Assembly: GCA_023129715.1 (NCBI GenBank)
Contig: JAGMBO010000022.1
Span: forward strand, 1-64,000
DNA: 64,000 nt
Direction: 5' to 3'
Origin: Candidatus Eiseniibacteriota bacterium
Lineage (GTDB): Bacteria; Eisenbacteria; RBG-16-71-46; CAIMUX01; WJJG01
The translations under genes were made by a program, and so were the position numbers. Below the pieces are notes generated by a model. That model did not search any database, was not told the origin of the DNA, and saw only the letters and a program-made list of their open reading frames with translations. This document shows, in pieces, positions 1,582 through 38,993 of the stretch; positions within the stretch are counted from its first letter, which is position 1; each line of letters begins with the position of its first letter.

Positions 1582-1775
1582 TCAGGTGCGCAGAGGGGAT
1601 GCTGCCGTGTGCCGACCGAGGGGCAGGTTGCCGCGTCCTCGCCGATGTGCGATCCACTTCCGGCGGGTCGAGCGGGAAGCCGCGCGTGCGGGGCGATTTC
1701 GCCGAGACCTCTCTCACCACACGGCTTCTCCACTGCCCTCGGCGAGCAGTACGGACACTAACTCCAGGGATCATC

Positions 1776-4052: not shown

Positions 4053-4349
4053 ACTGCATCTCCTTGCGCCGCTCGCTGAGTGCCATCCAGTCACAGCAAC
4101 GGATACTGCGCCTCCGACACTTGGCCATTCGCCGGCTGGCTCTCCTCGCCATCGTCCCCACGGGACCATCCTCTTGCCAGGTGGTCGTCTGTGAGGAGTT
4201 CGGAATCGACACAACCTCCTTGCCGGACCAGGTGGCTCCCGACTAGCATCGGGATGCGATTGGGCTCGCGATTGTCAGCCACTGAGTACGTGCGGGAGCG
4301 CCGACCTTCTGCTCGGACGCATTGGCCGGCCCCGCCGAGGAGACAGCTA

Positions 4350-4769
4350 ATGAGCACGCTCGAACGAGCCATCCAGATCGCGGCCCGCGCTCACGCGTCC
4401 CAGCAGGACAAGGCGGGCCAGCCCTACATACTGCATCCGCTGCGCGTCATGCTGCGGTTGGATTCAGAAGAAGAACGGATCGTCGCCGTCCTGCACGATC
4501 TGATCGAGGATACGGAATGGACTTCCGACGACTTGCTGAGTGAGGGATTCTCGCCCAGGATCGTCGACGCCGTCCTTGCTCTCACCCGTCAGGATGGGGA
4601 GTCCTACGACGGCTTCGTCCGCCGCGCTGCCCGGAATCCCATCGGCCGGCGTGTCAAGATCGCCGACCTGGAAGACAACATGGACCTCTCCCGCATTCCC
4701 AACCCGACGGCCCGGGACCAAGAACGTCTGAAGAAGTACGAGCGTGCGTACCGACAGCTCGCCGGATGA
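4350..4769 (+). CDS. Small HD-domain hydrolase, SpoT/MESH1-like
   Basis: This 139-residue single-domain protein has the metal ligands of the RelA/SpoT hydrolase fold: His29 (PYILHPLR), His49-Asp50 followed by Glu53-Asp54 (VLHDLIEDT), and Asp106 (RVKIADLEDN). No synthetase or regulatory domain follows. In this family such proteins are small alarmone hydrolases that split (p)ppGpp to GDP/GTP and pyrophosphate, although some members act on other nucleotides. The ATG follows CCGAGGAGACAGCTA, a good ribosome-binding site. The gene converges with the HTH/ImmA gene on the other strand with a two-base gap. The (p)ppGpp substrate is inferred, and a general HD phosphohydrolase remains possible. Confidence 0.75.
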   Translation: MSTLERAIQIAARAHASQQDKAGQPYILHPLRVMLRLDSEEERIVAVLHDLIEDTEWTSDDLLSEGFSPRIVDAVLALTRQDGESYDGFVRRAARNPIGRRVKIADLEDNMDLSRIPNPTARDQERLKKYERAYRQLAG

Positions 4770-4771
4770 CG

Positions 4772-5857: not shown

Positions 5858-6309
5858 GGGTATCCTCCACTCCGAGGACTCGGATGGCGCGGACGCCTCT
5901 CCAATCCAACCCGCCATCCGGCTTCCGCGGGAGGGGATCACAGGATATCCATCGCGGTTCCGAGATTCGATAAACTTGTTAACCCCAAGGGTGAATCATG
6001 GTCTCGCGAGAGCCATGTGTCAACCCATGTCACCATCGATCTCAATCGTCAATGACGCCTGTTGGGCTTGACATAGGAAGGCGATCACCTGAGCACAAGG
6101 ACGCCCTGCTCGCCGCCCTCATGCACACAGATGGAAACCGGCATCGTGCGATCTTCTCGCGCACTCGTCTCGACTCCGATCCCTGAATCCCTTTGAATCG
6201 GCCAGACACGGCTTGTAGGCTTGCGCCCACTGCGGGAACGTGCCGGATTACACGGAGCGGAACCGGTTCCGGCGTCGCAAGTTATCAAGAGCAGGGTGTA
6301 TCGGCTGCC

Positions 6310-24844: not shown

Positions 24845-25579
24845 TCAACGCAAGATCAGAATGCCCGTCTCGGGATGTGCCCCCACCTTCTCAGCGGGAT
24901 TGCCGCGGACTTGGGCCTGGGCATCGACATCGCTGCAAACGACCGACCCGGCGACGACCAGCGCCTCGCGCCCGAGCGTGACCTTCTCGACGATGGTGAC
25001 TCCGATGCCCAAGTAGCTCAGTTCCCCGATGCGGCAGGCGCTGGCGATCATGCAGCCCGGGGCGATGAAGACATGATCCTCGATGCGCGTGTTGTGGCCG
25101 ATGTGGGTCGCGGGGCGGATGATGACATTGTTGCCGATTCCGGATTCCGGCCCCACGAAGACGAAATCGCCGATGATGTTGTTCTCGCCGAGTTCGAGAT
25201 CGCCGGCCAAGCGGCTGGTCGGCGCGATCAGATTCGGCAGCCGGTAGCCGCGCTCCTTGGCCCGCCTGAACATCACCTCCCGGTCGCGCATGCGCTTGTA
25301 TCCGATGAGCACCAGCATGTCGTGGCGATCCGGTGGGAAGCGCTCGGCGACCTCTTCGAAGGCAACGACCGGGAGGCCTTCTCCTTCTCCCACGCGCCCA
25401 CCCTCCAGGAAACGGCGATCGACACAGAAGGCGACGACGTCGGCGAGCCCCTGCTCGCGAATCATCTTCAGCGTGGTGCGGGCGAGGGCGCCGATGCCAT
25501 AGATGACCAGCGGCCGCCGGGGGATCGCGCCCCCGGAATCACGGTCATGCGGCCCACAGGCGATCAGCGGGTGTTCCAT
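24845..25579 (-). CDS. NeuD/PglD-like sugar acyltransferase
   Basis: This 244-residue protein has an N-terminal Rossmann-like nucleotide-sugar part (PLVIYGIGALARTTLKMI, about 22-40) and a C-terminal left-handed beta helix of hexapeptide repeats (LGENNIIGDFVFVGPES, then IGNNVIIRPATHIGHNTRIE). A conserved His lies in the HIGH region. Family members transfer an acetyl group from acetyl-CoA to an amino sugar. The ATG follows AGGAGGTGCC. It is the last gene of the seven-gene ACP operon, after the phosphopantetheinyl transferase. In this setting the donor could be an acyl-ACP rather than acetyl-CoA; that is inference. Confidence 0.8.
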   Translation of the reverse strand: MEHPLIACGPHDRDSGGAIPRRPLVIYGIGALARTTLKMIREQGLADVVAFCVDRRFLEGGRVGEGEGLPVVAFEEVAERFPPDRHDMLVLIGYKRMRDREVMFRRAKERGYRLPNLIAPTSRLAGDLELGENNIIGDFVFVGPESGIGNNVIIRPATHIGHNTRIEDHVFIAPGCMIASACRIGELSYLGIGVTIVEKVTLGREALVVAGSVVCSDVDAQAQVRGNPAEKVGAHPETGILILR

Positions 25580-25661
25580 GGCACCTCCTGATTCATCCGT
25601 CCTGAGAATCTCGGCGATCTTCATTCATCTGCCGTGGAGAGCTCGGCAATCGTCGACGGCC

Positions 25662-26501
25662 TCAGCCCTCGATCCCGCCCCGGCGGGATTCACGCCGTTC
25701 GAACGCCACCGCTCCAGCATACCCCGCGGCGATATCGAGGTCGCGCAGGATCCACTGCTCCGCTGCTTGAGGATCGCGTTCGTCCGCAATCAGCCGCGGG
25801 GCCTGCTTGTCATCGCCGGCGGCCTCGGTCTGCCGGCATTCGGCCCAACCGATCGTGACCGAGAAGCTGCGCAGCCCACGCGCCAGCCCCTCGCCGCGCG
25901 CCTTGGCATAGGCCTCCTTGCGTACCCAGGCATGCAGGAAAATCTGCCGGCGATGCTCCTCCGCTGCTGCTGAGCCGGGGGCGGCGGCACCGGATCCATG
26001 GGTGGCGAGCGCATCCCAGACGGTCAGTTCCTGACTCGAGAAAACGCGGCGCGCGAGGCGCTCGGGATCGAGATCGGATCGGACTCGCTCGATGTCGACC
26101 CCGATCTCACCCGCTGTCGAGACGCCGATCAAACCCCACGCTCCCGAGTGGGAGAGGCTGAAACGAAGCCCGGGCTGACCAACCAAACGAGGTTTGCCAT
26201 GTCGGCCCTGCTCGAAGATCACTCGATCCGCCCTGAGACCTGCGCAGGCGGCGAGAACCACCCGTACACCGGCATGCGCCGCCGCGTAACGCCGCCCTCG
26301 CTCGGGCAGGGCGATACCTTCCACCCGCCGCCGCTCTTCATCCGAGAGCAGCGTAGCCGCCCATCGAGGAGCGACCGAATCGAGCCGCACCGACCAGATC
26401 TTCGCCTGCCCCGGCGGAAAAGCCGCGGACGCCGCCGGCGCTGCGATCCTCCCCGAGTGATCGATCTTCAGGCGTTCTACTTCCACGGCAATTTCCTGCA
26501 C
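25662..26501 (-). CDS. 4'-phosphopantetheinyl transferase, Sfp type
   Basis: The protein has 279 residues in the two-lobed Sfp fold. Signature motifs are FSLSHSGAWGLIGVS, GEIGVDIERVR (Mg-binding Asp/Glu) and WVRKEAYAKARGEG. It moves phosphopantetheine from CoA to a carrier-protein serine. The natural substrate is the ACP in the same operon, whose Ser30 motif is intact. A low-complexity stretch (GSGAAAPGSAAAEEH, near 168-182) is inserted before the WxxKEA motif. The start is uncertain: GTG at 26501 gives the full frame, but the recognisable fold begins near residue 30. The gene follows the FkbH-like gene by 35 bases. Confidence 0.88.
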   Translation of the reverse strand: MQEIAVEVERLKIDHSGRIAAPAASAAFPPGQAKIWSVRLDSVAPRWAATLLSDEERRRVEGIALPERGRRYAAAHAGVRVVLAACAGLRADRVIFEQGRHGKPRLVGQPGLRFSLSHSGAWGLIGVSTAGEIGVDIERVRSDLDPERLARRVFSSQELTVWDALATHGSGAAAPGSAAAEEHRRQIFLHAWVRKEAYAKARGEGLARGLRSFSVTIGWAECRQTEAAGDDKQAPRLIADERDPQAAEQWILRDLDIAAGYAGAVAFERRESRRGGIEG

Positions 26502-26536
26502 ATGGGAACCCAGGCCGTCCGCCGCAACTGCGGCAC

Positions 26537-27634
26537 CTACTCCCCGACGAGAACGTCGAGGTAGGCCGGAGGTCGCTGGAGGGGGACCGGATCGGTCTCG
26601 AGCGTGATCACCCGTGGCCGATTCACTCCGCCCCCCACGCCCTGCATCGACGGCTCCGGAGCCGTTGCCGGCGAGGCGGTCGTCTCTTCGAATCCGGCGA
26701 ACTTGAGCGTCACGAACATCTGCCGGTTCACATCCGTGGGAACATACTCCGCCCGCAACCGCACGCCGGCGCTTCTCGCCCGCTCGATGATGTGATGCAG
26801 CAGCACCGCCCCCACCCCGCGCGACATCACCCGGCAGGACATCAAGAGCAGCTTGATCGTCCAGACCTCGGCCGTGCAGGCGACCAGCGCAAGCCCGATC
26901 TTGCCATAGCTGCCGTAGCGGTCCTCCAGATCAGCGACCAGCAACAAGTGATCCGGCGACTGGCGCAGGCGATCGAGCTCGTCGTAGTCATACGTGTAGC
27001 CGGTCGAGTTGAGCTGATGCGTGCGGATGGTCAGCTCCTCGGCCCGCTCCAGGTCCCCCGGCTGCGCCTCGGTGATCCGCAGGCGCATGCCCAGGCTGGC
27101 GAGAAACCCCTCCTGGGACCCCGAGAACCGCGCTTCGGCCTGCCGGCGCTCGATCTCGCACTGATACATCTCGCGCCGGCGGCCCGAGTCCTGGGTCACG
27201 AAGCGCGGTTGGAAGGCGGGCAGGCCGGGGATCCGCGGGACCTCCGCCGCATCGAGGACCAGCACCTGTGGCAGGGTGTGCTTGACTTGATCGCGCTCGA
27301 AGGGATCGTCGTCGACAAAGGCGATCGCATCGAGACCGATGTTGATCGCCTCGGCGAGCCGCCGCAGCGAGTCGGGCTTTGCCCCCCAGCCGATCTGGGG
27401 ATGGAGGAAGTAGTCGCGCAGGCCGAATGCAGTCAGCCGCGCCAGTGCGCGATCGGGGTCATTGCGGCTGGCGATCGAATGGAGGATCCCGCGGGCATCG
27501 AGCGCTTCGATCACCTCGCGGACGGCGGGCTTCAAGGCAAGCTCGTCGTTCTCGAGCAGGATCCCACCCCACAGCGTGTTGTCGAGATCCCAAACGAGAC
27601 ACTTGATCGTCTGCGGCGCCCGCGAGTCCGTCAT
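26537..27634 (-). CDS. FkbH-like HAD protein, glyceryl-ACP synthase
   Basis: The 365-residue protein starts with the HAD-IIIC motif VWDLDNTLWGG (13-23) and has VDDDPFERDQVK at about 105-116. It ends with a GNAT-like lobe (TIRTHQLNSTGYTYDYDELD, SCRVMSRGVGAVLLHHI). FkbH-type enzymes take D-1,3-bisphosphoglycerate, remove phosphate and load the glyceryl group on an ACP. Length matches the family. The start overlaps the stop of the acyl-CoA-dehydrogenase-like gene (ATGA). It is the first step of the hydroxymalonyl-ACP route whose other enzymes are encoded upstream in the same operon. Confidence 0.9.
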   Translation of the reverse strand: MTDSRAPQTIKCLVWDLDNTLWGGILLENDELALKPAVREVIEALDARGILHSIASRNDPDRALARLTAFGLRDYFLHPQIGWGAKPDSLRRLAEAINIGLDAIAFVDDDPFERDQVKHTLPQVLVLDAAEVPRIPGLPAFQPRFVTQDSGRRREMYQCEIERRQAEARFSGSQEGFLASLGMRLRITEAQPGDLERAEELTIRTHQLNSTGYTYDYDELDRLRQSPDHLLLVADLEDRYGSYGKIGLALVACTAEVWTIKLLLMSCRVMSRGVGAVLLHHIIERARSAGVRLRAEYVPTDVNRQMFVTLKFAGFEETTASPATAPEPSMQGVGGGVNRPRVITLETDPVPLQRPPAYLDVLVGE

Positions 27635-28809
27635 CACAACCGTCCTTGGCGCTGCAGCGCATCGGTTGCGATCATCACCTGCTGGAGCTGATTGCTGCCC
27701 TCGATAATCTCCATCACCTTGGCATCGCGCAGGTAGCGCTGCACCGGGCTGCCCGCGGCGCACCCCTCGGCCCCGAGGATCTGAACCGCGGTCTGCCCGG
27801 CATGCATCGCCGCGCGGGCCGCGAAGTACTTCGCCGTGCAGGTTGCGATCACCCCGTCGGGATCGCCGCTTTGCCGCAGGCGTCCGGCCGCCATGGCGAG
27901 CTCGCGGGCGGCTTTCAGGTCGACCGCCATCTCCGCGATCAGCCCCTGGATGAGCTGGTGCTCGCGGATCGGCACATCGAACTGCACGCGCGTGCGCGCA
28001 CGGCGGGTCGCGGCCTCGAGGCAGGCGCGGATCAGCCCGACACAGCCCCAGGCGACGCCGTAGCGTCCCAGGTCGAGCGCGGCGGCCGCGACGTGATTCA
28101 GTCCGCTGCCGACCGGCCCGAGCATCCAGCCGGCCGGGATGCGGCAGTCAGCGAAATGCAGCTCGGCGAGCATCGCCGCGCGCAGGCCCAGCGGCGGCGC
28201 CAGGGGCTCGATCGTAAGCCCCGGGGTCCCGCGTGGGATCAGAAACGCCGTCGGCTTCTCGTCACAGCGGGCGAGCACCAGGAACAGATGCGCGATTTGC
28301 CCTGCGGTGATCCAACGCTTGCTGCCATGCAGCGAGAATCCATCGCCGCTGCGCACCGCCTCGGTGCGGATCGCCTTCGCGTCGCTGCCGACCTCGGGCT
28401 CGGTGAGCGCGAAGGCACCGAGCGTCTCGCCCCGGGCCATGCGAGGCAACCAGTCGGCTTGCTGTTCGGGACTCGCCCACCGGCCGATGGCGGCGGCGAC
28501 CATATCGTGAACGGTCAGCACGGCGCGGGTCGCCGCACACGCGGCGCCGAGTTGCTCATGGATCAGGCCATAGGTGATCGGATCGACGGGGCGGCCGCCC
28601 TGGCCCTCGGGCACGACGAGGCCGCAGAGTCCCTCGCGGCCGAGCATCACCGGCAACTCATCGGGCAGACGCCCCTCGGCGTCACAGGCATCGGCCCGGG
28701 GCCGGATCTCGCGCTCGATGAGTGCGCGACAGCGGGCCAGGCGCTGCTGTTGGTTCTCGGGGGGTTCCACGGGTGACTGTGCCTCTGGGAGCGCCATTCG
28801 ATCTTCCAT
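27634..28809 (-). CDS. Acyl-CoA dehydrogenase-like protein, FkbI type
   Basis: The 391-residue flavoprotein has the acyl-CoA dehydrogenase segments FALTEPEVGSDAKAIRT, HGSKRWITAG and MEIIEGSNQLQQ; the glutamate of the last aligns with the catalytic base region. In hydroxymalonyl- and methoxymalonyl-ACP pathways this type (FkbI, ZmaE) oxidises the aldehyde of the ACP-bound C3 unit to a carboxylate. Genetic context supports that role over fatty-acid oxidation. The ATG at 28809 has GAGG only three bases upstream, while an in-frame ATG at 28797 has GGAAG at better spacing, so the start may be four codons shorter. Its stop overlaps fkbH-like. Confidence 0.85.
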   Translation of the reverse strand: MEDRMALPEAQSPVEPPENQQQRLARCRALIEREIRPRADACDAEGRLPDELPVMLGREGLCGLVVPEGQGGRPVDPITYGLIHEQLGAACAATRAVLTVHDMVAAAIGRWASPEQQADWLPRMARGETLGAFALTEPEVGSDAKAIRTEAVRSGDGFSLHGSKRWITAGQIAHLFLVLARCDEKPTAFLIPRGTPGLTIEPLAPPLGLRAAMLAELHFADCRIPAGWMLGPVGSGLNHVAAAALDLGRYGVAWGCVGLIRACLEAATRRARTRVQFDVPIREHQLIQGLIAEMAVDLKAARELAMAAGRLRQSGDPDGVIATCTAKYFAARAAMHAGQTAVQILGAEGCAAGSPVQRYLRDAKVMEIIEGSNQLQQVMIATDALQRQGRL

Positions 28810-28868
28810 TCACCTCGATGATCGACCCCCGGTGAGCACTGGCGCTCGGCCGCTCCCGCCGCGCGCCA

Positions 28869-28985
28869 TCGATCAACCGGCTACCTGCGCTCGATCAATC
28901 CGAGCCGGGTCACTCGATCACTCCGGGGCACTCGATCAATTCGGACGTCTGCGCATCATCCGCCCGACCGCTTGCGCTCGATCAA
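28869..28985. repeat. Recurring TCGATCA motif in operon gap
   Basis: TCGATCA occurs at 28869, 28891, 28914, 28932 and 28979, mostly as TCGATCAAYYC, in and just below the 146-base gap between the ACP and the acyl-CoA-dehydrogenase-like gene. The spacing (22, 23, 18, 47 bases) is irregular. Confidence 0.45.
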
Positions 28986-29183
28986 CTCAGCCATGGCACC
29001 GATCGAGCGGAAGTTGGCCAGGCTCAGATCCTCGTTCCCCACCGTGATCCCGAACTCCTTCTCGATGAAGAGCACGAGCTGCATGGCGAAGAGCGAGTTG
29101 ACGAAACCAACCCCGAAGATGTCCTCATCGTCGCGGAGTTGGTAGTCCCCAAAGAAACGACCCAGGAAATCCCGGATCTTCAT
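28956..29183 (-). CDS. Acyl carrier protein, FkbJ type
   Basis: The 75-residue carrier has the FkbJ-like motif DIFGVGFVNSLFAMQLVLFI. Ser30 is the phosphopantetheine site, here preceded by Asn instead of the usual Asp of DSL. The helix following it is acidic (EKEFGI). FkbJ-type ACPs carry glyceryl, then hydroxymalonyl units. The ATG at 29183 is in good register with the family start. The ribosome-binding site (CAGGATTCACGG) is modest. It lies between the FkbK-like dehydrogenase and the FkbI-like flavoprotein genes. Confidence 0.88.
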   Translation of the reverse strand: MKIRDFLGRFFGDYQLRDDEDIFGVGFVNSLFAMQLVLFIEKEFGITVGNEDLSLANFRSIGAMAELIERKRSGG

Positions 29184-29268
29184 CCGTGAATCCTGCACGG
29201 CTACAGCATCTCCTCCTCGTCCCTGTTCGCCGATCACTCGGACGGGAAGCGCGTCCGATCGATCGCTC

Positions 29269-30123
29269 TCAACCCCCACAGGGACAGAACCCCTCACCGC
29301 TCTTGCGGCCCAGACGTCCCTCGGCCACCCGCTCGCTGAGCGGCGCACAGGGCTTGTAGCGTTCCGCCGAGACCTGCGTCTCGAGAACCGCGAGTGTCTG
29401 CGCGATCGTATCGAGGCCGATCAGGTCGGCCGTCTCGAGCGGACCCATCTTGTGCCCGAAGCACTCGCGGCAGACCCGGTCGATCGTCTGCGGACCGGCG
29501 ACACCTTCCTCGACCAGGCGCACCGCCTCGTTGATCATTCCCATCAGCAGGCGATTCGAGACGAACCCGGGCGAGTCCTTGATCGGGATCCCCGCCTTGC
29601 CGAGCCCGGCGAGCAGTGCCAGGGTGCGCGTGACCGTCTCGGCCGAAGTCTGCTCCCCGGGAATCACCTCGACGGCATGGATCCGCGCGACCGGATTCAT
29701 GAAGTGGACCCCGACGACCCGGTCGGGCCGCCCCGTGAAGGCGGCGAGCTGGGTAATCGGCATCGCCGAGGTGTTGGAGATGAAGATGCATTCCGGCGGA
29801 CAGCGCCGGTCGGCCTCGCGGTAGACGTCCTGCTTGACTCCCCAATCCTCGGTCACCGCCTCGATCAGCCACACCGCATCCCCCAACGCAGCCGCCTCGG
29901 TCGTCGTCCCGATCCGCCCAAGCGTCTCCTCCGGGTCCCCCGCGTTCGGGTTGGCCAGGAAGCGCTCCATGCGGCAGAGCTCGTGGATCCGCTCTCGACT
30001 CGCGGAGAGAATCGCCTCATTCTGATCGATCAAGACGACCGGATGGCCGTTCTGCGCAAGGTCATGGGCGATCCCGGTACCCATCACCCCAGCGCCGATC
30101 ACGTGCACGCGATCAGCCGGCAT
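29269..30123 (-). CDS. 3-hydroxyacyl dehydrogenase-like protein, FkbK type
   Basis: The 284-residue protein has the NAD-binding motif VIGAGVMGTGIA (6-17), FISNTSAMPITQLA, GVHFMNPVARIHAVEVI and PGFVSNRLLMGMINEAVRL, and ends in a Cys-Pro-Cys tail. In the methoxymalonyl and hydroxymalonyl routes, FkbK-like enzymes (ZmaG) oxidise the C3 hydroxyl of glyceryl-ACP to an aldehyde. The general family includes 3-hydroxybutyryl-CoA dehydrogenase, so context decides the call. The ATG at 30123 has GGGAGGTGGATC upstream, and the gene overlaps the end of the glycosyltransferase by 11 bases. Confidence 0.85.
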   Translation of the reverse strand: MPADRVHVIGAGVMGTGIAHDLAQNGHPVVLIDQNEAILSASRERIHELCRMERFLANPNAGDPEETLGRIGTTTEAAALGDAVWLIEAVTEDWGVKQDVYREADRRCPPECIFISNTSAMPITQLAAFTGRPDRVVGVHFMNPVARIHAVEVIPGEQTSAETVTRTLALLAGLGKAGIPIKDSPGFVSNRLLMGMINEAVRLVEEGVAGPQTIDRVCRECFGHKMGPLETADLIGLDTIAQTLAVLETQVSAERYKPCAPLSERVAEGRLGRKSGEGFCPCGG

Positions 30124-31123
30124 GATCCACCTCCCGCTCCGTCGCGCCATTGGCAGCCGAGTCGGCCATCGTCGCCTCCCGTTCCTGGCGGCTGTCGTGG
30201 CGAACGACATAGCTGGGCCGGCTCTCCGCGGTGTGAATGATCCGCACGAGGTAGGTGCCGATGATGCCGATCGAGAAGAGCAGCACGCCGCCGATCCCGA
30301 GCAGCGCAAGCATCAACGAGGTCCAGCCAGAGACGCCGATGCCATGCATGAACTTGCGCAGCAAGTAGTAGACAAAAACGACCAGAGCGAGAAACGAGAC
30401 ACTGATCCCCAGGTACCCGATCGTCGTCAGCAGGAGGGCTGAGTTGTTGATGATCAGATTGCTGAAGAGTTTCAGGCGCTTGGAGAATGTGTAACCGCTG
30501 CGGCCGAGTTCGCGCTTGTCGTGCTGGACGACGACGTTGACCACATCGCGCGTCGTGTGGAAGACGAGTGGAAAGAGCAGCGGATAAGGCGTGTGCACCG
30601 AGAGCACGCCGCGCACGATCGGGCGCCGCATCAGAACGAACGATGAATGGTGGATGTGAAAGGGTTTGCGCAATAGCAACCAGTCGAAGTAGCCCTTGAT
30701 CCGGCTGGTGAAGCGCTTGAACCAACCATGTTGCTTACGGGGAAAGTGGGCGATGACGACGTCGTGCTCGCGCGCCGCGACAAGGAGGGGGATCGCCTCG
30801 GGCGGATGCTGCAGATCGTCGTCCATCGTGATCACATACTCACCGCGCGCCTCGGCGAGTCCACAGAGCATCGCCGCCGACTGACCGTAGTTACGGGTCA
30901 GGCGCAGGGCGATCACCTCGGGGAACGAGCGGGCCAGCCGGCGCAGGGTCGGCCAGGTCTCCGGGTTGGGCGAGTCGTCGTCGACGAAGATCAGCTCGGA
31001 GGGCTGGCCGATCTCCTCGCGGAAGACACGCGTCACCCGCTCGGCCAGCAGGGGCAGCGAGTCGGCGCTGTCATAGACGGGAACGACAACGGAATAGAGC
31101 GGTTTCTTCTCTAGGAATGCCAT
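30113..31123 (-). CDS. Polyprenyl-phosphate glycosyltransferase, GT2
   Basis: The 336-residue protein has a GT2 fold (about 10-215) with YSVVVPVYDSADSLP, FVDDDSPN and the DxD site TMDDDLQHPPE. Two transmembrane helices follow (about 236-260 and 275-303). This matches ArnC/dolichol-phosphate-mannose-synthase-like enzymes that put a sugar on undecaprenyl phosphate. The start at 31123 is the first in-frame ATG before the conserved core, and the ribosome-binding site is poor. It is the first gene of the minus-strand ACP operon and overlaps the FkbK-like gene, which ties lipid-linked sugar chemistry to the ACP pathway. Confidence 0.88.
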   Translation of the reverse strand: MAFLEKKPLYSVVVPVYDSADSLPLLAERVTRVFREEIGQPSELIFVDDDSPNPETWPTLRRLARSFPEVIALRLTRNYGQSAAMLCGLAEARGEYVITMDDDLQHPPEAIPLLVAAREHDVVIAHFPRKQHGWFKRFTSRIKGYFDWLLLRKPFHIHHSSFVLMRRPIVRGVLSVHTPYPLLFPLVFHTTRDVVNVVVQHDKRELGRSGYTFSKRLKLFSNLIINNSALLLTTIGYLGISVSFLALVVFVYYLLRKFMHGIGVSGWTSLMLALLGIGGVLLFSIGIIGTYLVRIIHTAESRPSYVVRHDSRQEREATMADSAANGATEREVDHAG

Positions 31124-31168
31124 GCGTTGGGACGATAGCAGTGAGCTGCCGCCAAGTACAGTCTGGGC

Positions 31169-31197
31169 TTGTTCCGCCCCGATCGGCCCCCTATCCT
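31169..31197 (+). promoter_or_regulatory. Candidate promoter for the ADP-forming acyl-CoA synthetase operon
   Basis: TTGTTC (31169-31174) and TATCCT (31192-31197) are 17 bases apart, 53 bases before the ATG at 31251, in the 127-base divergent gap. Confidence 0.45.
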
Positions 31198-31250
31198 CAG
31201 TCGGCCCCGCACGATCTCGCGGGGTCAACATCGTGAGCAAGGGAGAGACC

Positions 31251-33506
31251 ATGACCCAGCGCCAAGGCCAGGGTGCCCCGGCCCCTAGGAAGCCGGACGG
31301 GAAGCAGAGCGGCAGAGCTGCCACCAAGGCAACCGCCGAAGCCGCCACCGAGACGGCCGGCAGAGCTGCCACCAAGGCGGCCGCCGATGCCCGCGCCGGT
31401 CTCGATCCGCTCCTCCGGCCACGATCGATCGCCATCATCGGGGCCTCTCCACGGCCCAACTCGATCGGCCGGGTGGTGCTGCACAACATCATCGATGCCG
31501 ACTTCAACGGTGTCGTCTACCCGGTCCACCCGAAAGCCCCCTTCGTCCACAGCATGAAGGCCTATCCGAGTATCACCGACGTCCCCGATGACATCGATCT
31601 CGCCTTCGTCATCGTCCCCCATACTCGTGCCATCGATGTCGTCGAGGAGTGTGGCGAGAAGGGCGTGCGGGCGGTCTGTGTGATCAGCGCGGGCTTTCGC
31701 GAGATCGGCGGCGAGGGAATCAAGCGCGAGGAGGCGCTGCTGGCCCTCGTGCAGAAGTACGGCATGCGCATGGTCGGACCGAATTGCCTCGGCCTGGTCA
31801 ACATGACCCCCGACGTGCGCCTCAACGCGACCTTCGCCCCAGCGACTCCGATTACCGGCGGGCTCGCCTTCCTTTCCCAGAGCGGCGCGCTGGGTGTCTC
31901 GATCCTCCAAAACATGGAGCGGCTCAACATCGGCTTCAGCTACTTCGTCTCGATCGGCAACAGCGCCGACGTCAGGGGCCATGATCTACTGCAGTACTGG
32001 GAGGAAGATCCACATACTGATGTCGTCGCCCTGTATGTCGAGTCCTTCGGCGACCCGCGCATCTTGGGGCCTCTGCTGCGGCGGATCACGCGGCGCAAGC
32101 CGGTCGTCGTCGTCAAGTCGGGCCGCACCGCTGCCGGCGCCCGGGCCGCCTCCTCCCACACCGGGGCGCTCGCGGCTGCCGATGTCACCGTCGATGCCTT
32201 CCTGCGCCAGACGGGCGCGATTCGGGCAAACACGATCGAGGAGATGCTCGGCCTACTGACCGGCTTCTGCCGCTCGCCGCTGCCCAAAGGCAAACGGGTG
32301 GCGATCCTGACCAATTCGGGCGGCCCCGCGATCATGGCGACCGACGCGCTGGTGACCGGCGGGATGGAGATCGCTCGCTTCAGCGACGAGACCAACGCCA
32401 AGCTCAAGGCGATGCTGCCGATCGAGGCGAGCCACGCGAACCCGATCGATCTGACCGCCTGGGGCGTGGCCGACACCTATCGCGAGATCCTGCCGACCCT
32501 CTTCGCCGATCCCAATGTCGATATCATTCTCGCCCTCTTCGTCCCGCCGCTGATGGTCGATCCCGCCGATGCGGCGCGGGCGATTGCCGAGTCGCGCAAG
32601 GGGCAGGAGAAGCCGATCTACGGGGTGATCATGGCCGAGGAGTCCTCCTATCGCATGCTGCCGCGTGAGATCCCCAACTGTCCGCCGATCTACCCCTTCC
32701 CCGAGATGGCAGTGCAGGCCTGTATGACGATGTACAACTATGCGCAGTGGCAGAAGCGTCCCTTCGGTGAGTTCCCGCGCTTCGATGTGCGCACCGACGA
32801 GGCGCGCGCGATCATCGCGCCCTATCTGAAGAAGGGCGGCGGCTACCTCCCGACGGCCGAGTGCATGAAGGTGCTCGACTGCTACGGCTTCCCGACCGCG
32901 CCGCTATTGGAGACCGAGGGCGCCGAACCGGCCCTGCAGGCGGCTAACGAGTTCGGCTACCCGGTCGCCTTCAAGGTCGGCGGGCGCAAGTACGTGCACA
33001 AGTCGGATATGGGCGGCGTCGTGCTCGGCATCAAGAACGACCTCGAACTGCAGGGCGCGCATGCGCAGATCACACGGCTGATCGAGAAGATGGGTGATGA
33101 TCCGAGCGAGGAACGCGGCCTGGTCCAGAAGATGGTCAAGCCGGGGCGCGAGGTGATCCTCGGGATGAGCGTCGATCCGAAGATGGGACCGACGATCATG
33201 TTCGGCATGGGGGGCAAGTACGTCGAGGTGCTCAGAGACGTGACCATCCGCATCCCGCCGATCTCGGATACCGACGCCAAGGAGATGATCCGCTCGATCC
33301 GTAGCTTCCCGCTGCTCGAAGGCGTGCGCGGCGAGGATGGCGTCGCCATGGATCTGCTGGTCGAATGCGTCCTGCGACTCTCGCAGATGGTACTCGAGCT
33401 CGAGGAGATCGCCGAGCTCGATCTGAACCCCTTCATCATGAACCCGGCGCGCAAGGACTGCGCGGTGGTGGATGCGCGCATTCGCGTCACCCCGCGCGCA
33501 GAGTAG
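31251..33506 (+). CDS. ADP-forming acyl-CoA synthetase, fused alpha-beta
   Basis: The 751-residue protein joins the CoA-binding/ligase alpha part (about 52-480) to the ATP-grasp beta part (about 530-750), as in single-chain acetate-CoA ligase (ADP-forming). Motifs are IAIIGASPRPNSIGRVV, the phosphohistidine segment ASSHTGALAA (His303), AFKVGGRKYVHKSDMGGV and EIAELDLNPF. It interconverts acyl-CoA, ADP and phosphate with acid, CoA and ATP. The start at 31251 follows GGGAGAGACC. Residues 10-50 are an Ala/Thr/Lys-rich extension with a duplicated GRAATKA, unlike the family. The next gene starts 19 bases later. Confidence 0.92.
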   Translation: MTQRQGQGAPAPRKPDGKQSGRAATKATAEAATETAGRAATKAAADARAGLDPLLRPRSIAIIGASPRPNSIGRVVLHNIIDADFNGVVYPVHPKAPFVHSMKAYPSITDVPDDIDLAFVIVPHTRAIDVVEECGEKGVRAVCVISAGFREIGGEGIKREEALLALVQKYGMRMVGPNCLGLVNMTPDVRLNATFAPATPITGGLAFLSQSGALGVSILQNMERLNIGFSYFVSIGNSADVRGHDLLQYWEEDPHTDVVALYVESFGDPRILGPLLRRITRRKPVVVVKSGRTAAGARAASSHTGALAAADVTVDAFLRQTGAIRANTIEEMLGLLTGFCRSPLPKGKRVAILTNSGGPAIMATDALVTGGMEIARFSDETNAKLKAMLPIEASHANPIDLTAWGVADTYREILPTLFADPNVDIILALFVPPLMVDPADAARAIAESRKGQEKPIYGVIMAEESSYRMLPREIPNCPPIYPFPEMAVQACMTMYNYAQWQKRPFGEFPRFDVRTDEARAIIAPYLKKGGGYLPTAECMKVLDCYGFPTAPLLETEGAEPALQAANEFGYPVAFKVGGRKYVHKSDMGGVVLGIKNDLELQGAHAQITRLIEKMGDDPSEERGLVQKMVKPGREVILGMSVDPKMGPTIMFGMGGKYVEVLRDVTIRIPPISDTDAKEMIRSIRSFPLLEGVRGEDGVAMDLLVECVLRLSQMVLELEEIAELDLNPFIMNPARKDCAVVDARIRVTPRAE
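31311..31378 (+). repeat. Duplicated 20-mer in the synthetase N-terminus
   Basis: GGCAGAGCTGCCACCAAGGC occurs at 31311-31330 and 31359-31378, a 48-base period that preserves frame and gives the repeated GRAATKA in the Ala-rich extension. Confidence 0.75.
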
Positions 33507-33525
33507 CAGGAGGCGGGATCCGGCC

Positions 33526-34833
33526 ATGGCCAAGATCCTCCTCGTCAAGCACCTCTTCCCCTACCCGCCCAGCCAGGGTACGCGACGGGTTTCACTCGCC
33601 CTGCTCGGTGATCTGGCCACGCGCCACGAGGTCGTCTATCTCTGCCAGCTCGAGCATCCCGGCGAGCGCGAGCTAGTTCCCAAGATCGAGAGACTCGGAG
33701 TGCGGGTCGTGGCACCGCTGATGCCCAACCATCGCACACCCGTTCATCGCCTGCTCTACAAGATCAAGAACCGGGCCTTGAGCCGCCTGCAGGATATCCC
33801 GGAGGTCTGCTACTACTGGTCGAACATCGCCCTGCGCACGAATCTCGAGCGACTGCAGGATGAGTTCGCCCCCGAGCTGACGATCCTCGAGAACTGGGAG
33901 ACCTTCCCGCTGCGCCGCTCGATCAAGACCGGCATCGCCGCCTTACTCGCCCACGATGCGGCCTTTCAGATCCTCGAGCGGGCGGTGGCCGCCACGACCG
34001 ATCCGCGGGAACGCGCCCGTCGGGCGCGCGCGCTGGAGCAGCAGAAGCGGCTCGAGATCGCCGCCTGGGGAATGTACGAGGCGGTGATGACCTTGACCGA
34101 GAGCGACCGGGAGACGATCGAGCAGGAGTTGGGATTGCCCGATCCTCAGGACTCGCTATCCCCCGGCCTGCCGCCGATCAAGCCGATTGTCCGTCATCTC
34201 CCCGTGCCGGTGCCGGGTGAGTTCTTCGACTTCTCACGCCCGGCGACGCCCGGGAAGCGCGTCGGGTTCTTGGGCACGTTCCGGGCGCACTTCAACCGCG
34301 ACGCCCTCGAGTTCCTGCTGCAGGAGATCTGGCCCGAGCTGAGCTGGGCGGTGCCCGATGCGCGGCTCGTGATCGCGGGCAACGGTTACCAGGGTCGGCT
34401 GAAGACAGCCGCCGAGCGCGCCGGCGCGCGCTGGATGGGGTTCGTGCACGATCTGGATGAGTTCTTCCAGGCGATCGACGTGTTGCTCGTTCCGCTGCGC
34501 TTCGGCGGCGGCGTGCGGATCCGGATCCTGGAGGCGCTGGCGGCGGGGGTGCCGATCGTGGCGACCCCGGTGGCCCTCGCCGGGCTCGCCGCCCGCCCCG
34601 AGGAACATCTGCTCCTCGGGGCCGATGCCGCCGAGATCGCCGGGCAGATCGAGTGGCTGTTTGCGAATCCCCGGGAGGCAGCCGCGATGGGTGCCCGGGG
34701 CCGCGCCTGGTGCCGTGAGGCGCATGGACCGGAAGCTCTGCGACCCAGGCGCCTGGCAGTGATCGATGAGATCCTGGCGCTGAGGTCTGCGGCAGGGGAC
34801 GCCCGACGCCACGACCGAGGAGGCCGATCATGA
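33526..34833 (+). CDS. Glycosyltransferase, GT4-like
   Basis: The 435-residue protein starts MAKILLVKHLFPYPPSQGTR, the nucleotide-sugar-binding opening of GT-B enzymes. The second Rossmann half has VGFLGTFRAHFNRDALEFL, GFVHDLDEFFQAIDVLLVPL and GGGVRIRILEALAAGVPIVAT, the usual GT4 donor site. It has no membrane segment. The ATG at 33526 is preceded by CAGGAGG at about 12 bases. The donor sugar cannot be told. The gene lies between the acyl-CoA synthetase (19 bases) and the S41 peptidase (ATGA overlap), so all three are probably one transcript. Confidence 0.88.
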   Translation: MAKILLVKHLFPYPPSQGTRRVSLALLGDLATRHEVVYLCQLEHPGERELVPKIERLGVRVVAPLMPNHRTPVHRLLYKIKNRALSRLQDIPEVCYYWSNIALRTNLERLQDEFAPELTILENWETFPLRRSIKTGIAALLAHDAAFQILERAVAATTDPRERARRARALEQQKRLEIAAWGMYEAVMTLTESDRETIEQELGLPDPQDSLSPGLPPIKPIVRHLPVPVPGEFFDFSRPATPGKRVGFLGTFRAHFNRDALEFLLQEIWPELSWAVPDARLVIAGNGYQGRLKTAAERAGARWMGFVHDLDEFFQAIDVLLVPLRFGGGVRIRILEALAAGVPIVATPVALAGLAARPEEHLLLGADAAEIAGQIEWLFANPREAAAMGARGRAWCREAHGPEALRPRRLAVIDEILALRSAAGDARRHDRGGRS

Positions 34834-36254
34834 TGACACGGGACGATGTGAGGCGGACATCGCCGACCTCGGGAAACTTGCTGCCTTCGAAGGCCTTGCC
34901 GGCACCCCTGACGCTGCTTGCAGCATTGATGACGCTTCTTGCCCTGCTCGCCCTGGCCGCCCCCGCCGGCGCCCAATTCGCCCCCCCCGAACAACCGGTC
35001 GCGATCGACGCCGAGATGCGGGCGGCGATCGTCGATAGCGTCACCGGGGTCATCGACACCGTCTATGTGCTCGAGGAGCCGGCCCGCAGAATCGTCGCCG
35101 GGCTGCGCGGCAACCTTGCCGACGGCGCCTACGACGACCTCTCTGATCTGGTCGAGTTCCTGCAGCGGCTCGATGCCGATGCCCAGGCGATCAATCATGA
35201 CGGTCACTTCGGCATCCGGGCGCTTGCCCCGGTCGATCCGCGGTACGTCGAAGAGGGCGAGGACCCGGCGGAGGCGGCGCGCCGCCTCCGCTTCCAACGG
35301 GCGGGCAACTTCGGATTCCGCAAGGTCGAGATGCTGCCCGGAGGTGTCGGCTACCTGCGGTTCGATTCATTCGAGACTCCCGACCGCGACGCCTTCGCCG
35401 CGGCAGCGGCAGCGATGAATTTCCTGGCCAACAGCGAGGCGTTGATCATCGATCTGCGGCGCAACGGCGGTGGAGAGCCGTCGATGATCCGCTTTGTCGC
35501 CGGCTATTTCTTCGACGAGTCCGTCCACCTGATCAGTTGGTATGAGCGGGACAATGAGAAGACGGTGCAGTCCTATTCCGCCGATCACGTGCCGGGGCCG
35601 CAGCTCCTCGACCAACCCGTCTATATCCTGACGGCCCGGCGCACCGCCTCGGCGGCCGAGGAGTTCACCTTCGACATGCGCAACCTTGAGCGCGCCACCA
35701 TCGTGGGCGACACGACCGCCGGTGCCGGGCACACGGTCCACGGGGCGGTCTTCGACTTCGAGGGTTTCCGGGTCATGGTGCGCGTGCCCTTCGGCCGGGC
35801 CTTCAATCCAGAGAACAACGAGGGGTGGGAAGGCGTGGGCGTCATCCCCCACATCGCCGTGCCCGAGGCGCAGGCCCTCGAGGCCGCCCATGCCGATGCG
35901 CTGCGCACACTCATCGAGGCGGAGGAGGACGAGGAGTACAAGGTCTTCCTCGAGTGGCCGCTCCAGGAGATCGACAGTCGCCTCCACCCACTGACAATCT
36001 CGCAAGAGGAGATGGCCGCCTACGAGGGCCAATATGGCCCGCGGCGCATCTACATCGAGGAGGGCGCGCTCCACTACCTGCGCGAGGGCCGGCCACCCTT
36101 CCGACTCGAGCCGATGGGAGACAACCTCTTCCGTGTCGGGGGCCTCGACTACTTCCGGCTCACCTTCGAGCGCGACGAGACCGGAGCGGTGATCAAGATC
36201 ATCGGCCTCTATGACAACGGCCGTCGCGACGAGCACATGCGCGACGCGGGCTGA
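34830..36254 (+). CDS. S41-family peptidase, secreted
   Basis: The 474-residue protein has a signal peptide (LLAALMTLLALLALAAPAGA, about 30-48) and a tail-specific-protease/IRBP-type catalytic domain. Key segments are GGVGYLRFDSFETPD, ALIIDLRRNGGG, and ILTARRTASAAEEFTFDM with the catalytic Ser near 274; GVGVIPHIAVP follows. No PDZ domain is evident between the N-terminal helical part and the core, as in the IRBP-like branch. Family enzymes cut C-terminal tails of envelope proteins. The ATG overlaps the glycosyltransferase stop and has GAGGAGGCCGATC upstream. Confidence 0.88.
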   Translation: MMTRDDVRRTSPTSGNLLPSKALPAPLTLLAALMTLLALLALAAPAGAQFAPPEQPVAIDAEMRAAIVDSVTGVIDTVYVLEEPARRIVAGLRGNLADGAYDDLSDLVEFLQRLDADAQAINHDGHFGIRALAPVDPRYVEEGEDPAEAARRLRFQRAGNFGFRKVEMLPGGVGYLRFDSFETPDRDAFAAAAAAMNFLANSEALIIDLRRNGGGEPSMIRFVAGYFFDESVHLISWYERDNEKTVQSYSADHVPGPQLLDQPVYILTARRTASAAEEFTFDMRNLERATIVGDTTAGAGHTVHGAVFDFEGFRVMVRVPFGRAFNPENNEGWEGVGVIPHIAVPEAQALEAAHADALRTLIEAEEDEEYKVFLEWPLQEIDSRLHPLTISQEEMAAYEGQYGPRRIYIEEGALHYLREGRPPFRLEPMGDNLFRVGGLDYFRLTFERDETGAVIKIIGLYDNGRRDEHMRDAG

Positions 36255-36588
36255 AGTCTCGGGGTGCTCCCGATGGCCGCCTGGAACGGAGAGTGCCCGC
36301 CGCGTCAATCCCCGCCGTCGGGGCGCCATGCCCCGCCAGTCAGGCCCTCCGCGCGCGAACGGCCCCGCCGCCGGCAGCCACGCCTAGCAGCAAAGGCCGG
36401 CTCCCACTGCTGGCAGGCGCGCCCTGCCGCGGGGGCGGCCCGCAGCCGCCCGCCGCGCCCCCCACCCTCGCCTTCTGGCCATCACTCTGCTACCCTGACG
36501 GCCTTGCTTTCGCGCAATGAGGCGCCCCTGAGAGCCGAAAACCTAAGCGACCGGCCCGGCTTCGGGCCGGCATCGGGAAGGCGACCTG
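36255..36588. other. GC-rich intergenic region with hairpins, no gene seen
   Basis: This is a 334-base gap. CGGGGC-GCCAT-GCCCCG at 36319-36335 is a perfect six-bp stem that may end the upstream transcript. A second hairpin at 36551-36570 is listed separately. Confidence 0.45.
36551..36570 (+). other. Perfect hairpin in the 5' leader of the epimerase gene
   Basis: CCGGCCCG, loop GCTT, CGGGCCGG ends 18 bases before the epimerase ATG. It sits directly before the ribosome-binding site (GGGAAGG), so it could tune translation or be a short attenuator. Confidence 0.45.
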
Positions 36589-37590
36589 ATGGCTACTGCT
36601 GATTCACCGCCCAACGCACCGGGACCTGCGCCCCGGACCGACGACTGGACCGGCCGGCGCGTGCTCGTCACCGGCGGCGCGGGCTTCATCGGCTCGCACT
36701 TGGTCGACCGCCTGGTCGCCGGGGGAGCCGAGGTGCGCGTGCTCGACAATCTCCAGGCGGGAAATGAGAAAAACCTGAGCCAGGTGCGCGCGACGATCGA
36801 TCTGCGCATCGCCGACCTGCGCGATCCTCAGGCGGTCAGCGATGCCGTCCGGGGATGTGAGGTGCTCTTCCACATCGGCGCCAATGCGTCGGTGCCCGCC
36901 TCGGTCGACGATCGCGACTACGACTTCACGACCAATACGCTCGGCACCTATCACCTCGCCGATGCCGCCATCCGCCATGGCGCCCGCCGCATCGTGCATG
37001 CCTCGACCGCGGCCGTTTACGGCCCGCCGCAATACACGCCGGTTGACGAGGCGCATCCGCTCAATCCGATTTCGCCCTACGGGGGCTCGAAGCTGGCCGC
37101 CGAGCGGCTGCTAGCCGCCTACGCGCAGACCTTCGACTTCGAATTCGCCGCCGTGCGTATCTTCAACACGTACGGGCCGCGGCAACCACGCTACGTCGCC
37201 TACGACCTGATGATGAAGCTCACGCGCGACCCGCAGCACCTCGAAGTGCTCGGCACGGGAGAGCAGAAGCGCGACTACTGCTACATCTCGGATACAGTAA
37301 GCGCGCTCCTGCTGGCCGGCGAGATCCCGGCCGCCCAGCCCGAGGTGATAAACGTCTCGGGCGGGCGCACGATCACGATCCGTGAGCTCGTCGACTTGAT
37401 CCTACAAACCCTCGGACTCGACCAGACCGAAGTCGTCTATGGACTTCCCTCCTGGAAGGGAGATATCGAGGTACTCTCGGGCGATATCACCAAGCTGCGC
37501 GGTCTCGGTTGGCAACCGACCGTTCCGCTCGAGGAAGGTCTGCGCCGGATGGCAATCGACTTGGGCGTGCTGCCCCGGGAGAGATCATGA
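36589..37590 (+). CDS. NAD-dependent sugar-nucleotide epimerase/dehydratase
   Basis: The 333-residue protein is an extended short-chain dehydrogenase: Rossmann motif VTGGAGFIGSHL (27-38), VLFHIGANASVPASVDD, HASTAAVYG and SPYGGSKLAAE, with the catalytic Tyr and Lys of YxxxK. FNTYGPRQ and GEQKRDYCYISD follow. The closest functional class is UDP-glucose 4-epimerase-like, but other NDP-sugar epimerases and dehydratases share these motifs. The first 20 residues are a Pro-rich extension. The stop overlaps the next glycosyltransferase start (ATGA). It supplies a sugar nucleotide for the adjacent transferases; the identity is unknown. Confidence 0.9.
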   Translation: MATADSPPNAPGPAPRTDDWTGRRVLVTGGAGFIGSHLVDRLVAGGAEVRVLDNLQAGNEKNLSQVRATIDLRIADLRDPQAVSDAVRGCEVLFHIGANASVPASVDDRDYDFTTNTLGTYHLADAAIRHGARRIVHASTAAVYGPPQYTPVDEAHPLNPISPYGGSKLAAERLLAAYAQTFDFEFAAVRIFNTYGPRQPRYVAYDLMMKLTRDPQHLEVLGTGEQKRDYCYISDTVSALLLAGEIPAAQPEVINVSGGRTITIRELVDLILQTLGLDQTEVVYGLPSWKGDIEVLSGDITKLRGLGWQPTVPLEEGLRRMAIDLGVLPRERS

Positions 37591-38993
37591 CCGTTCCGGG
37601 CGGCGTCTTCCGATCCATGCGCGGGCCGGCATCCGCCGGGACGCGGAGTGCTGCGAGGCGCCGGGTGCGCGTCGCCTTGGTCGGCGAGTATCCGATCGCC
37701 GAGGATGCGATCCACGCCGGCGGCATCCAGTCGGTGACTCATGGATTAGCGCACGCCCTCGCCCGCCGGGATGACATTGAATGCCACGTCGTCTGCGCCA
37801 CGGCGGGCGTCAATGAGCTCGAGCGGCAGGTCGGGCCGCTGACGGTCCACTTCGTCCGCCGCACCGCCCTGCCGCGTCTGGCGACCAATCGGCTGCACGA
37901 TGTGCCCCGGCTCGTGCAGCTCATCCGCTACCTCGAACCTGACGTCGTCCATGGCCAGGGACAGGATCGGCATGGGTTGGCAGCGGTCCGCTCGGGCTTT
38001 CCCACGGTCGTGACCCCGCATGGGGTGATCTTCGTCGAGAGCCGGCTGCTTCGGCGCCACGCCCTCGATGCCGTCGGCGGACTGAAGAAGTACCTGCTCG
38101 ACCGCACCGAACGCGAGGTCTTCGATCGGGCAAAGGACATGATTATCATCTCGCCCTACCTGCCGCGCATCTATGGCCGCATGCTGAGCGCGCGTCCACA
38201 CTTGATCGAGAACCCGATCAACGAGGCCTTCTTCTCGCTCGAGCGGGCGCCCGAACCGGGCCGCCTGCTCTTCGCCGGCACGGTCGTCCCGCGCAAGCGG
38301 GTCGAGGATCTCGTCTATGCCGTGGCCGCGCTGCGGAGATCTGCGATCTCGGCCTCCAGCCCCCTCGCGCCGGGGAGCATTCCCGGCGCTCCCGCGGGGC
38401 TGGGAAGCGCCGCGACCGCGACCGCGGGTGCACCGGGCGTCCCGGCACGCGGTGCAGGGGATCTGGCGGGCGCCTCGGGCAGCGGCGTTCGTCAGCCCGA
38501 TTGGTTCCCCCGGCTGCAGCTGCGGATCGCCGGCCCGCTCGTCGACCGCGACAGCGAGGCGCGGGTGCGCGGTGCGATCGCCGAGCAACGCTTGGAGCAA
38601 TCGGTCACCTTGCTCGGTGCGGTCAGTCAGACCGAGCTCTACGAGGAGTACCGCCGCGCGCAGGTGCTCGTGCTCGCTTCCCGCGAAGAAACCTCTCCGC
38701 AAATCATCGCCCAGGCGATGGCCTGTGGCCTGCCGATCGTGGCGTCCCGGGCGGGTGGGGTCCCCGACATGGTGCGCGATGGTGAGGAGGCGCTGCTCTT
38801 CCCCATCGGCAACATCGACACCTGTGCCGCCCAGATCCGCCGCCTGCTCGATGAGACCGGCTTCCGCGAGGCGATGGGTTACCGCATCCGCGAGGCGGCG
38901 GGGCGGCGCTTCCATCCCGACGCGGTGGCGGAGCAGACGGTCGGGGTGTATCGAGAGATGCTGGGTGGTGACCATCCCCTGACGACCGGATAG
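37587..38993 (+). CDS. Glycosyltransferase, GT4 family
   Basis: The 468-residue GT-B enzyme has VRVALVGEYPIAEDAIHAGG near the start, VTPHGVIFVESRLL, LLFAGTVVPRKRVEDLV and ASREETSPQIIAQAMACGLP, the GT4 donor-site segment with the conserved glutamates. About 50 residues of Ala/Gly/Pro/Ser-rich sequence (about 252-304) interrupt the second Rossmann half between strand segments. This insert is absent from ordinary GT4 proteins and resembles inserts in other genes here. The ATG overlaps the epimerase stop, with GGGAGAG upstream. Confidence 0.88.
   Translation: MTVPGGVFRSMRGPASAGTRSAARRRVRVALVGEYPIAEDAIHAGGIQSVTHGLAHALARRDDIECHVVCATAGVNELERQVGPLTVHFVRRTALPRLATNRLHDVPRLVQLIRYLEPDVVHGQGQDRHGLAAVRSGFPTVVTPHGVIFVESRLLRRHALDAVGGLKKYLLDRTEREVFDRAKDMIIISPYLPRIYGRMLSARPHLIENPINEAFFSLERAPEPGRLLFAGTVVPRKRVEDLVYAVAALRRSAISASSPLAPGSIPGAPAGLGSAATATAGAPGVPARGAGDLAGASGSGVRQPDWFPRLQLRIAGPLVDRDSEARVRGAIAEQRLEQSVTLLGAVSQTELYEEYRRAQVLVLASREETSPQIIAQAMACGLPIVASRAGGVPDMVRDGEEALLFPIGNIDTCAAQIRRLLDETGFREAMGYRIREAAGRRFHPDAVAEQTVGVYREMLGGDHPLTTG

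Follow-up and report, generated by a model that had tools for sequence, protein, structure and literature searches.

What does a complete set of hydroxymalonyl-acyl carrier protein (ACP) genes do in a bacterium where no modular polyketide synthase (PKS) was found to use its product? This question is raised by seven genes at positions 24845-31123, minus strand, of a stretch of 64,000 nucleotides from a Candidatus Eiseniibacteriota bacterium (the window; positions 1 to 64,000 of contig JAGMBO010000022.1). Our answer, to which we give a probability of roughly 60%, is that these genes would build a C3 acyl group on a dedicated ACP, place it on an amino sugar and then move the sugar to polyprenyl phosphate. 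Open reading frame (ORF) and Pfam/NCBIfam profile searches agree with an earlier reading of the window (the original prediction) on the class of each of the seven co-directional genes, which are, in the order of reading:

30113..31123, minus strand: polyprenyl-phosphate glycosyltransferase (GT), GT2 family, ArnC/GtrB-like, with two C-terminal hydrophobic segments (PF00535, 97 bits)
29269..30123, minus strand: FkbK-like 3-hydroxyacyl dehydrogenase, predicted to act in C3 oxidation of glyceryl-ACP (PF02737, 3HCDH_N, and PF00725, 3HCDH)
28956..29198, minus strand: FkbJ-type ACP (PF00550, PP-binding)
27634..28809, minus strand: FkbI-like enzyme of the acyl-CoA dehydrogenase (ACAD) type, predicted to turn aldehyde into carboxylate on the ACP (three ACAD Pfam domains)
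26537..27634, minus strand: FkbH-like putative glyceryl-ACP synthase, HAD-IIIC plus C-terminal domain (TIGR01686, 264 bits, cut-off 146.65)
25662..26501, minus strand: Sfp-type 4'-phosphopantetheinyl transferase (PF01648, ACPS, 55 bits)
24845..25624, minus strand: NeuD/PglD/PerB-type left-handed beta-helix sugar N-acyltransferase (TIGR03570, 159.8 bits)

The two overlapping junctions that had been noticed earlier are GT/FkbK, with 11 bases, and FkbI/FkbH, with one base (TGATG); the other gaps are of about 35-146 bases. The true start of the NeuD gene is more likely 25579 than 25624, since AGGAGG stands just upstream of it (25589-25584) and since this start removes an N-terminal extension that is missing in relatives. 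A sigma-70 promoter scan of the run gave nothing above chance.

Analysis of the protein sequences indicates that the hydroxymalonyl-ACP set is complete, as had been proposed, with all members present and with apparently intact motifs: a discrete ACP is linked to FkbI- and FkbK-type dehydrogenases and the catalytic residues are kept. FkbH, whose motifs were compared over 122 sequences, has the HAD motif DLDNT from Asp16 and a C-terminal Cys267 in SCRV, and is ~60% identical to FkbH of other phyla. FkbK has His140 in HFMNP and Glu152 at the expected spacing and is 43-52% identical to FkbK proteins that adjoin FkbI/FkbH in many loci. FkbI matches several solved ACADs, including the FkbI structure 1r2j (205 bits), and has Glu370 at the catalytic position within IIEGS. 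In these families the FkbH cysteine, the FkbK His/Glu dyad and the FkbI glutamate are catalytic residues. The ACP, 45-65% identical to ACPs of FkbH loci, carries the attachment residue Ser35 in the motif GFVNSLFAMQL, of which NSLFAMQ is common to 31 of 90 matches, and the Sfp-type transferase carries GVDIE and WVRKEAY motifs.

Which enzyme then takes the product? The window was said to hold neither a PKS nor the FkbG methyltransferase, and this stands for the scanned ORFs, which do not include every small one; a nonribosomal peptide synthetase (NRPS) is absent there too, and FkbG was looked for in these ORFs and not genome-wide. The original prediction had also named a PKS or NRPS elsewhere in the genome as evidence that would count against it. 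We searched the host assembly (4.83 Mb, 186 contigs, 96% complete) and found no modular PKS: PF00109 gave one 433-codon single-domain ketosynthase (KS) and a weak match within a thiolase, and PF00668, the NRPS condensation domain, gave no match. The single-domain protein is of FabF size and we read it as the one true KS of the host, and a PKS elsewhere in the genome was rejected as the consumer of the ACP. One could still argue that the run is an ordinary operon for extender-unit supply and that its PKS or NRPS is missing from the assembly or has been lost. Most FkbKJIH loci are indeed found near a PKS or in genomes with a modular PKS elsewhere, and large PKS genes are known to break assemblies such as this one of 186 contigs. 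Yet 4.83 Mb at 96% completeness with one FabF-size KS, a weak thiolase match and no condensation domain, together with the lack of a modular-range KS in both of the other genomes where NeuD is linked to the cassette (see below), makes this explanation very improbable.

Another concern is whether the cassette belongs to this genome. FkbH is single-copy in the host, and 46 phylum relatives that were searched all lack it, which would fit an assembly artefact or a contig alien to the host. The tetranucleotide make-up argues otherwise: cassette and flanks correlate at r 0.935, a value within the 0.82-0.96 seen for other pieces, and three further host contigs match the window at 0.945-0.962, better than do loci of other organisms. 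This composition speaks against a foreign contig, and neither a foreign contig nor an artefact is readily credible. What these data suggest instead is that the FkbKJIH cassette was probably acquired, likely with its NeuD gene, and would later have drifted to host composition, since no phylum relative has FkbH and since the window NeuD is closer to a NeuD of Desulfobacteraceae (locus L083; 139 bits) than to the best NeuD of its own phylum (63.9 bits).

The acyl-accepting enzyme is suggested by the ends of the run. The window NeuD scores 159.8 bits against TIGR03570, whose cut-off is 160.8, and the NeuD proteins of two related loci, L066 and L083, score 173.7 and 153.9 bits. Its nearest solved chains are PglB-ATD of Neisseria (4m98) and PerB (4ea7), followed by LpxA, VioB and LpxD; LpxA, among these solved relatives, belongs to this superfamily too and works with acyl-ACP. 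His177 aligns with PerB H141 and is invariant in the L083 and L066 proteins. A structural model, built from three alignment rows and with a mean pLDDT of 61, is of moderate confidence and serves for the fold class only; a fold search with it gave as the top eight matches only 4-amino-sugar N-acetyltransferases (PglB-ATD, PerB, VioB, WeeI). The window NeuD shares fold and catalytic histidine position with PerB, PglD, VioB and PglB-ATD, but these use acetyl-CoA, whereas the donor proposed here is an acyl-ACP. At the other end of the run, the GT shows DDD motifs and two hydrophobic stretches (residues 228-255 and 268-292), as expected of an ArnC/GtrB-type GT2 protein. It aligns with ArnC over residues 10-312 (125 bits), with sll0501/GtrB as the next nearest solved protein. 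ArnC, the undecaprenyl-phosphate 4-deoxy-4-formamido-L-arabinose transferase, moves an N-acylated (N-formylated) 4-amino sugar to undecaprenyl phosphate, and the window GT shares with it full-length similarity and the C-terminal hydrophobic pair. Unlike in ArnC systems, it lies far below the cut-off of the strict ArnC equivalog NF007986 (134 against 529 bits) and no other arn genes were seen in the window. A host aminotransferase on another contig scores best with the ArnB and PseC models. The 4-amino-sugar kin of NeuD, the ArnC likeness of the GT and this aminotransferase together point to a 4-amino sugar.

Is the link between the cassette and NeuD found elsewhere? We scanned 84,980 species genomes for FkbH and compared the best 80 loci by FkbH similarity, from draft genomes. 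The FkbK-ACP-FkbI-FkbH order is the rule among them, most have a PKS ketosynthase no more than 10 kb away, and the cassette proteins are 42-65% identical to their counterparts. In 14 genomes with PKS-free FkbH loci, most best KS matches fall between 3e-70 and 6e-105, the modular-PKS range; the exceptions are L066 (G048; 3e-57), L083 (G047; 2.1e-62) and L008 (G050; 2e-56). In L066, from a Sedimentisphaerales genome (Planctomycetota), and in L083, NeuD stands directly after FkbH, there is no KS in the locus, and FkbI and FkbK are linked as in the window. The check suggested earlier, a search of other genomes for the seven-gene order, thus gave a match in part: FkbKJIH-NeuD is present in two other genomes without a modular-range KS, but the GT is not. 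Divergent from the L083 cassette is a gene for a WecE-type dTDP-4-amino-4,6-dideoxygalactose transaminase (575 bits, cut-off 375); after it come genes for a large membrane protein that matches no Pfam family and for an LPG_synthase_TM protein. In enterobacteria the WecE product is N-acylated by WecD with acetyl-CoA. As WecE makes the substrate of an N-acyltransferase, no other independent evidence supports the amino-sugar reading as strongly as this pairing, which also names dTDP-Fuc4N as a concrete candidate substrate.

Further searches added no case: among 161 genomes of the L066 order only L066 itself has the link, among 242 genomes of the L083 order 12 FkbH were found and the eight new loci, fetched wider, are all without it, and further FkbH matches in other phyla are PKS-linked, partial or without NeuD. 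In the FkbH tree all three NeuD-linked proteins fall in the FkbI/K-associated clade, whose inner order the tree leaves open. In the concatenated K-J-I-H tree L083 is the sister of L066 (1.0), and the window groups (0.96) with L048 of Sphaerimonospora, whose contig of 5.6 kb breaks off at FkbH. A single clade of the three NeuD-linked cassettes is therefore not supported. The FkbH-NeuD link, in at least two lineages, may have arisen by independent joining, or it may be an old link that was lost elsewhere; either would fit the trees.

These loci also bear on the possibility that NeuD is a bystander, an ordinary acetyl-CoA-dependent sugar N-acetyltransferase beside the cassette, while hydroxymalonyl-ACP feeds something unrecognised such as tartronate release, a ligase or a small KS. 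Acetyl-CoA is the donor of known NeuD-family enzymes, the window protein is 1 bit under the TIGR03570 cut-off, and three PKS-free cassettes (L026, L045, L059) stand beside unrelated genes. Against these points, a NeuD gene directly adjoining FkbH recurs across phyla, and the window NeuD is nearer to that of L083 than to the NeuDs of its own phylum, so that we consider a bystander role quite unlikely.

A more probable mechanism that fits these data is a five-step pathway. The Sfp-type enzyme would first add phosphopantetheine to Ser35 of the ACP. FkbH would then load a glyceryl group from 1,3-bisphosphoglycerate, and FkbK and FkbI would oxidise its C3 to give hydroxymalonyl-(tartronyl-)ACP; the chemistry of these two steps follows the literature, where FkbH makes glyceryl-ACP and a two-step oxidation then gives hydroxymalonyl-ACP (PMC7489565), and that hydroxymalonyl is the final acyl group here is our own suggestion. 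In the fourth step the NeuD/PglD-type enzyme, in place of a PKS acyltransferase, would N-acylate a nucleotide-bound 4-amino-4-deoxy (or 4,6-dideoxy) sugar from the acyl-ACP; we assign the transfer to NeuD because no other enzyme of the run accepts an acyl group. Finally, the ArnC-like GT would transfer this N-acylated sugar onto polyprenyl phosphate, from which, after export, it would reach a glycan, lipid or protein of the cell surface. That the C3 group goes to a sugar had been proposed before, and this agrees with the FkbH-NeuD adjacency found in two further phyla, in one of them with a WecE-type transaminase alongside. The lipid-linked acceptor of that proposal does not fare as well: since the solved NeuD relatives (PglB-ATD, PerB, VioB, WeeI, PglD) act on nucleoside diphosphate (NDP)-4-amino sugars, an NDP-4-amino sugar is the more likely acceptor.

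It may also be that NeuD takes glyceryl-ACP as its donor and a glyceramide is formed on the sugar, while FkbI and FkbK stand to the side, use another substrate or act after the transfer. Glyceroyl-type groups are known on glycans, such as 2,3-di-O-methylglyceroyl on pseudaminic acid (PMC3068675), and FkbH genes without FkbI/K are found in glycan loci of Niveispirillum (FkbH-ACP-WcbI) and Maritalea (FkbH with pseB on one side and DUF4910/NeuB-family genes on the other). But FkbI and FkbK keep their catalytic-position residues and their linkage in the window, L083 and L066, which would be hard to explain if they were unused. For this reason, that both stay intact in all three NeuD-linked loci, we favour hydroxymalonyl and regard a glyceryl donor as unlikely. 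The specific form of our proposal, in which hydroxymalonyl-ACP directly N-acylates a 4-amino-sugar nucleotide to give surface-glycan sugars with a tartronamido (2-hydroxymalonamido) group, and in which K-J-I-H and NeuD were joined at least twice, in three phyla, is tentative and falls somewhat short of an even chance.

Several observations weigh against transfer of the C3 group to an amino sugar. For NeuD relatives whose donor is known, this is acetyl-CoA, and the operon of the window has no sugar aminotransferase or 4,6-dehydratase. An Sfp gene separates FkbH from NeuD in the window, the only locus with the GT, and the L066 contig ends right after NeuD. With L066 and L083 as sisters (1.0), the independent recurrences come to two lineages and not three.

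How does such a system compare with those already described? The FkbHIJK(G) cassettes for methoxymalonyl- or hydroxymalonyl-ACP (FK506, oxazolomycin, bafilomycin and tetromadurin types) share the gene set, the K-J-I-H order and the catalytic motifs. In FK506-type pathways the PKS takes the unit after methylation; unlike in these, the scanned ORFs of the window have no O-methyltransferase, the host has no PKS, and NeuD, GT and Sfp genes are part of the run. A parallel in function is the O-polysaccharide of Flavobacterium psychrophilum, for which acyl transfer from the ACP WfpD to a 4-amino-sugar nucleotide via the PglD homologue WfpG was proposed (PMC6519341). As proposed for the window, a glycan-dedicated ACP stands there beside a NeuD/PglD-type N-acyltransferase, but the F. 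psychrophilum acyl group is 3,5-dihydroxyhexanoyl, proposed from fatty acid synthase-like KS and ketoreductase (KR) genes, whereas that of the window would be a glycerate-derived C3 unit; no KS/KR genes of this type for an acyl chain were found in the window's operon. ACP-dependent glycan acylation, which the original prediction did not know to be described, had therefore been proposed already; a full hydroxymalonyl set in this role was not found described, and the open-access literature yielded no description of hydroxymalonyl-ACP being put to use for a glycan (subscription papers were outside the search). If our proposal is true, an extender-unit pathway of assembly-line PKS/NRPS also feeds glycan acylation and gives a negatively charged, hydroxylated N-acyl group. 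It would also explain some of the hydroxymalonyl-ACP cassettes in PKS-free genomes, which genome mining may mislabel as PKS supply. The system further bears on whether NeuD/PglD-family enzymes accept acyl-ACP donors, for which the open-access literature has so far offered proposals only.

A glycan-linked FkbH gene is also found in Campylobacter jejuni, whose flagellar-glycan locus holds the FkbH-domain gene cj1302 (PMC7099621) and whose pseudaminic acid, in strain NCTC 11168, bears the 2,3-di-O-methylglyceroyl group (PMC3068675). We suggest that cj1302 may supply this glyceroyl group. C. jejuni shares with the window the placing of an FkbH-domain gene among glycan genes and, if the window acts as proposed, a glycerate-derived acyl group on an amino sugar; it differs in that no FkbI/FkbK are mentioned and that the glyceroyl is O-methylated, while the scanned ORFs of the window have no DUF4910 or nonulosonate genes. 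The C. jejuni protein Cj1295 is of the DUF4910 type. A Niveispirillum plasmid (NZ_CP025615.1) has FkbH, ACP and the polysaccharide acyltransferase WcbI in a row with no PKS shown, and differs from the window by its long-type FkbH (~34% identical), by WcbI instead of NeuD and by having no FkbI/K. On a Maritalea plasmid (L170; NZ_CP021332.1, 3820-14133) pseB, a long-type FkbH, an SDR, a DUF4910 protein and a NeuB-family gene stand in a row, which recalls the glyceroyl-pseudaminic acid locus of C. jejuni, and on an Aquisphaera plasmid FkbH lies within a dTDP-sugar and exosortase cluster. The FkbH proteins of all three plasmids are long-type and without FkbI/K.

Other loci gave side observations on FkbH and NeuD. 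A Sinorhizobium meliloti plasmid (L168; CP050512.1, 815-5849) has an MBOAT acyltransferase, an ACP and a long-type FkbH close together, possibly another ACP-linked set for glyceryl acylation; among plasmid records of Sinorhizobium, 40 have an FkbH match. On rhizobial plasmids, such as one of Peteryoungia (L165; NZ_CP058351.1), genes for NeuD-like acetyltransferases, ~31% identical to the window NeuD, overlap a class I methyltransferase gene and adjoin WbqC and GT2 genes, possibly a related amino-sugar acylation set without FkbH. In L008 (Kiritimatiellales) FkbK-ACP-FkbI-FkbH is followed by a 372-aa protein (4115-5230) of no Pfam/NCBIfam family, which makes the locus a further candidate for non-PKS use of the cassette; a by-eye reading of this protein as a GNAT enzyme had no profile match and was not used. 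The K-J-(I)-H cassettes of L026, L045 and L059 adjoin genes unrelated to PKS or glycans in genomes that have a modular PKS elsewhere, so that the cassette seems to be mobile by itself.

Next to the run, on the opposite strand, the window contains the following genes:

31122..33506, plus strand: ADP-forming acyl-CoA ligase, divergent neighbour (PF13549, PF13607), similar to 4-hydroxybutyrate-CoA ligase but below cut-off
33472-34833, plus strand: GT4 glycosyltransferase (Pfam)
36589-37590, plus strand: NAD-dependent sugar epimerase (Pfam)
37509-38993, plus strand: GT4 glycosyltransferase (Pfam)

The ligase is probably not part of the system and was rejected as a pathway member for want of supporting evidence. 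Beyond it, the two GT4 genes and the epimerase lie within 8 kb, with an S41 peptidase among them, and the genes at 33472..38993 possibly serve the same glycan as the run. At the window end, co-directional minus-strand genes (56760-63927) encode a biotin carboxylase, a carboxyltransferase, a biotin carrier, an enoyl-CoA hydratase, a thiolase and an archaeal-type HMG-CoA synthase; the last two were considered as users of the ACP and set aside, as these genes seem to form an acyl-CoA pathway of their own. Near the window start, in a possible defence island, are a Ser/Thr kinase with TPR repeats and a PD-T4-6-like kinase domain (1599-4052, plus strand), an HD-domain protein (4080-4769, plus strand) and a helix-turn-helix protein with an IrrE/ImmA-type peptidase (4772-5941, minus strand), similar to PD-Lambda-2_B (142 bits, PADLOC).

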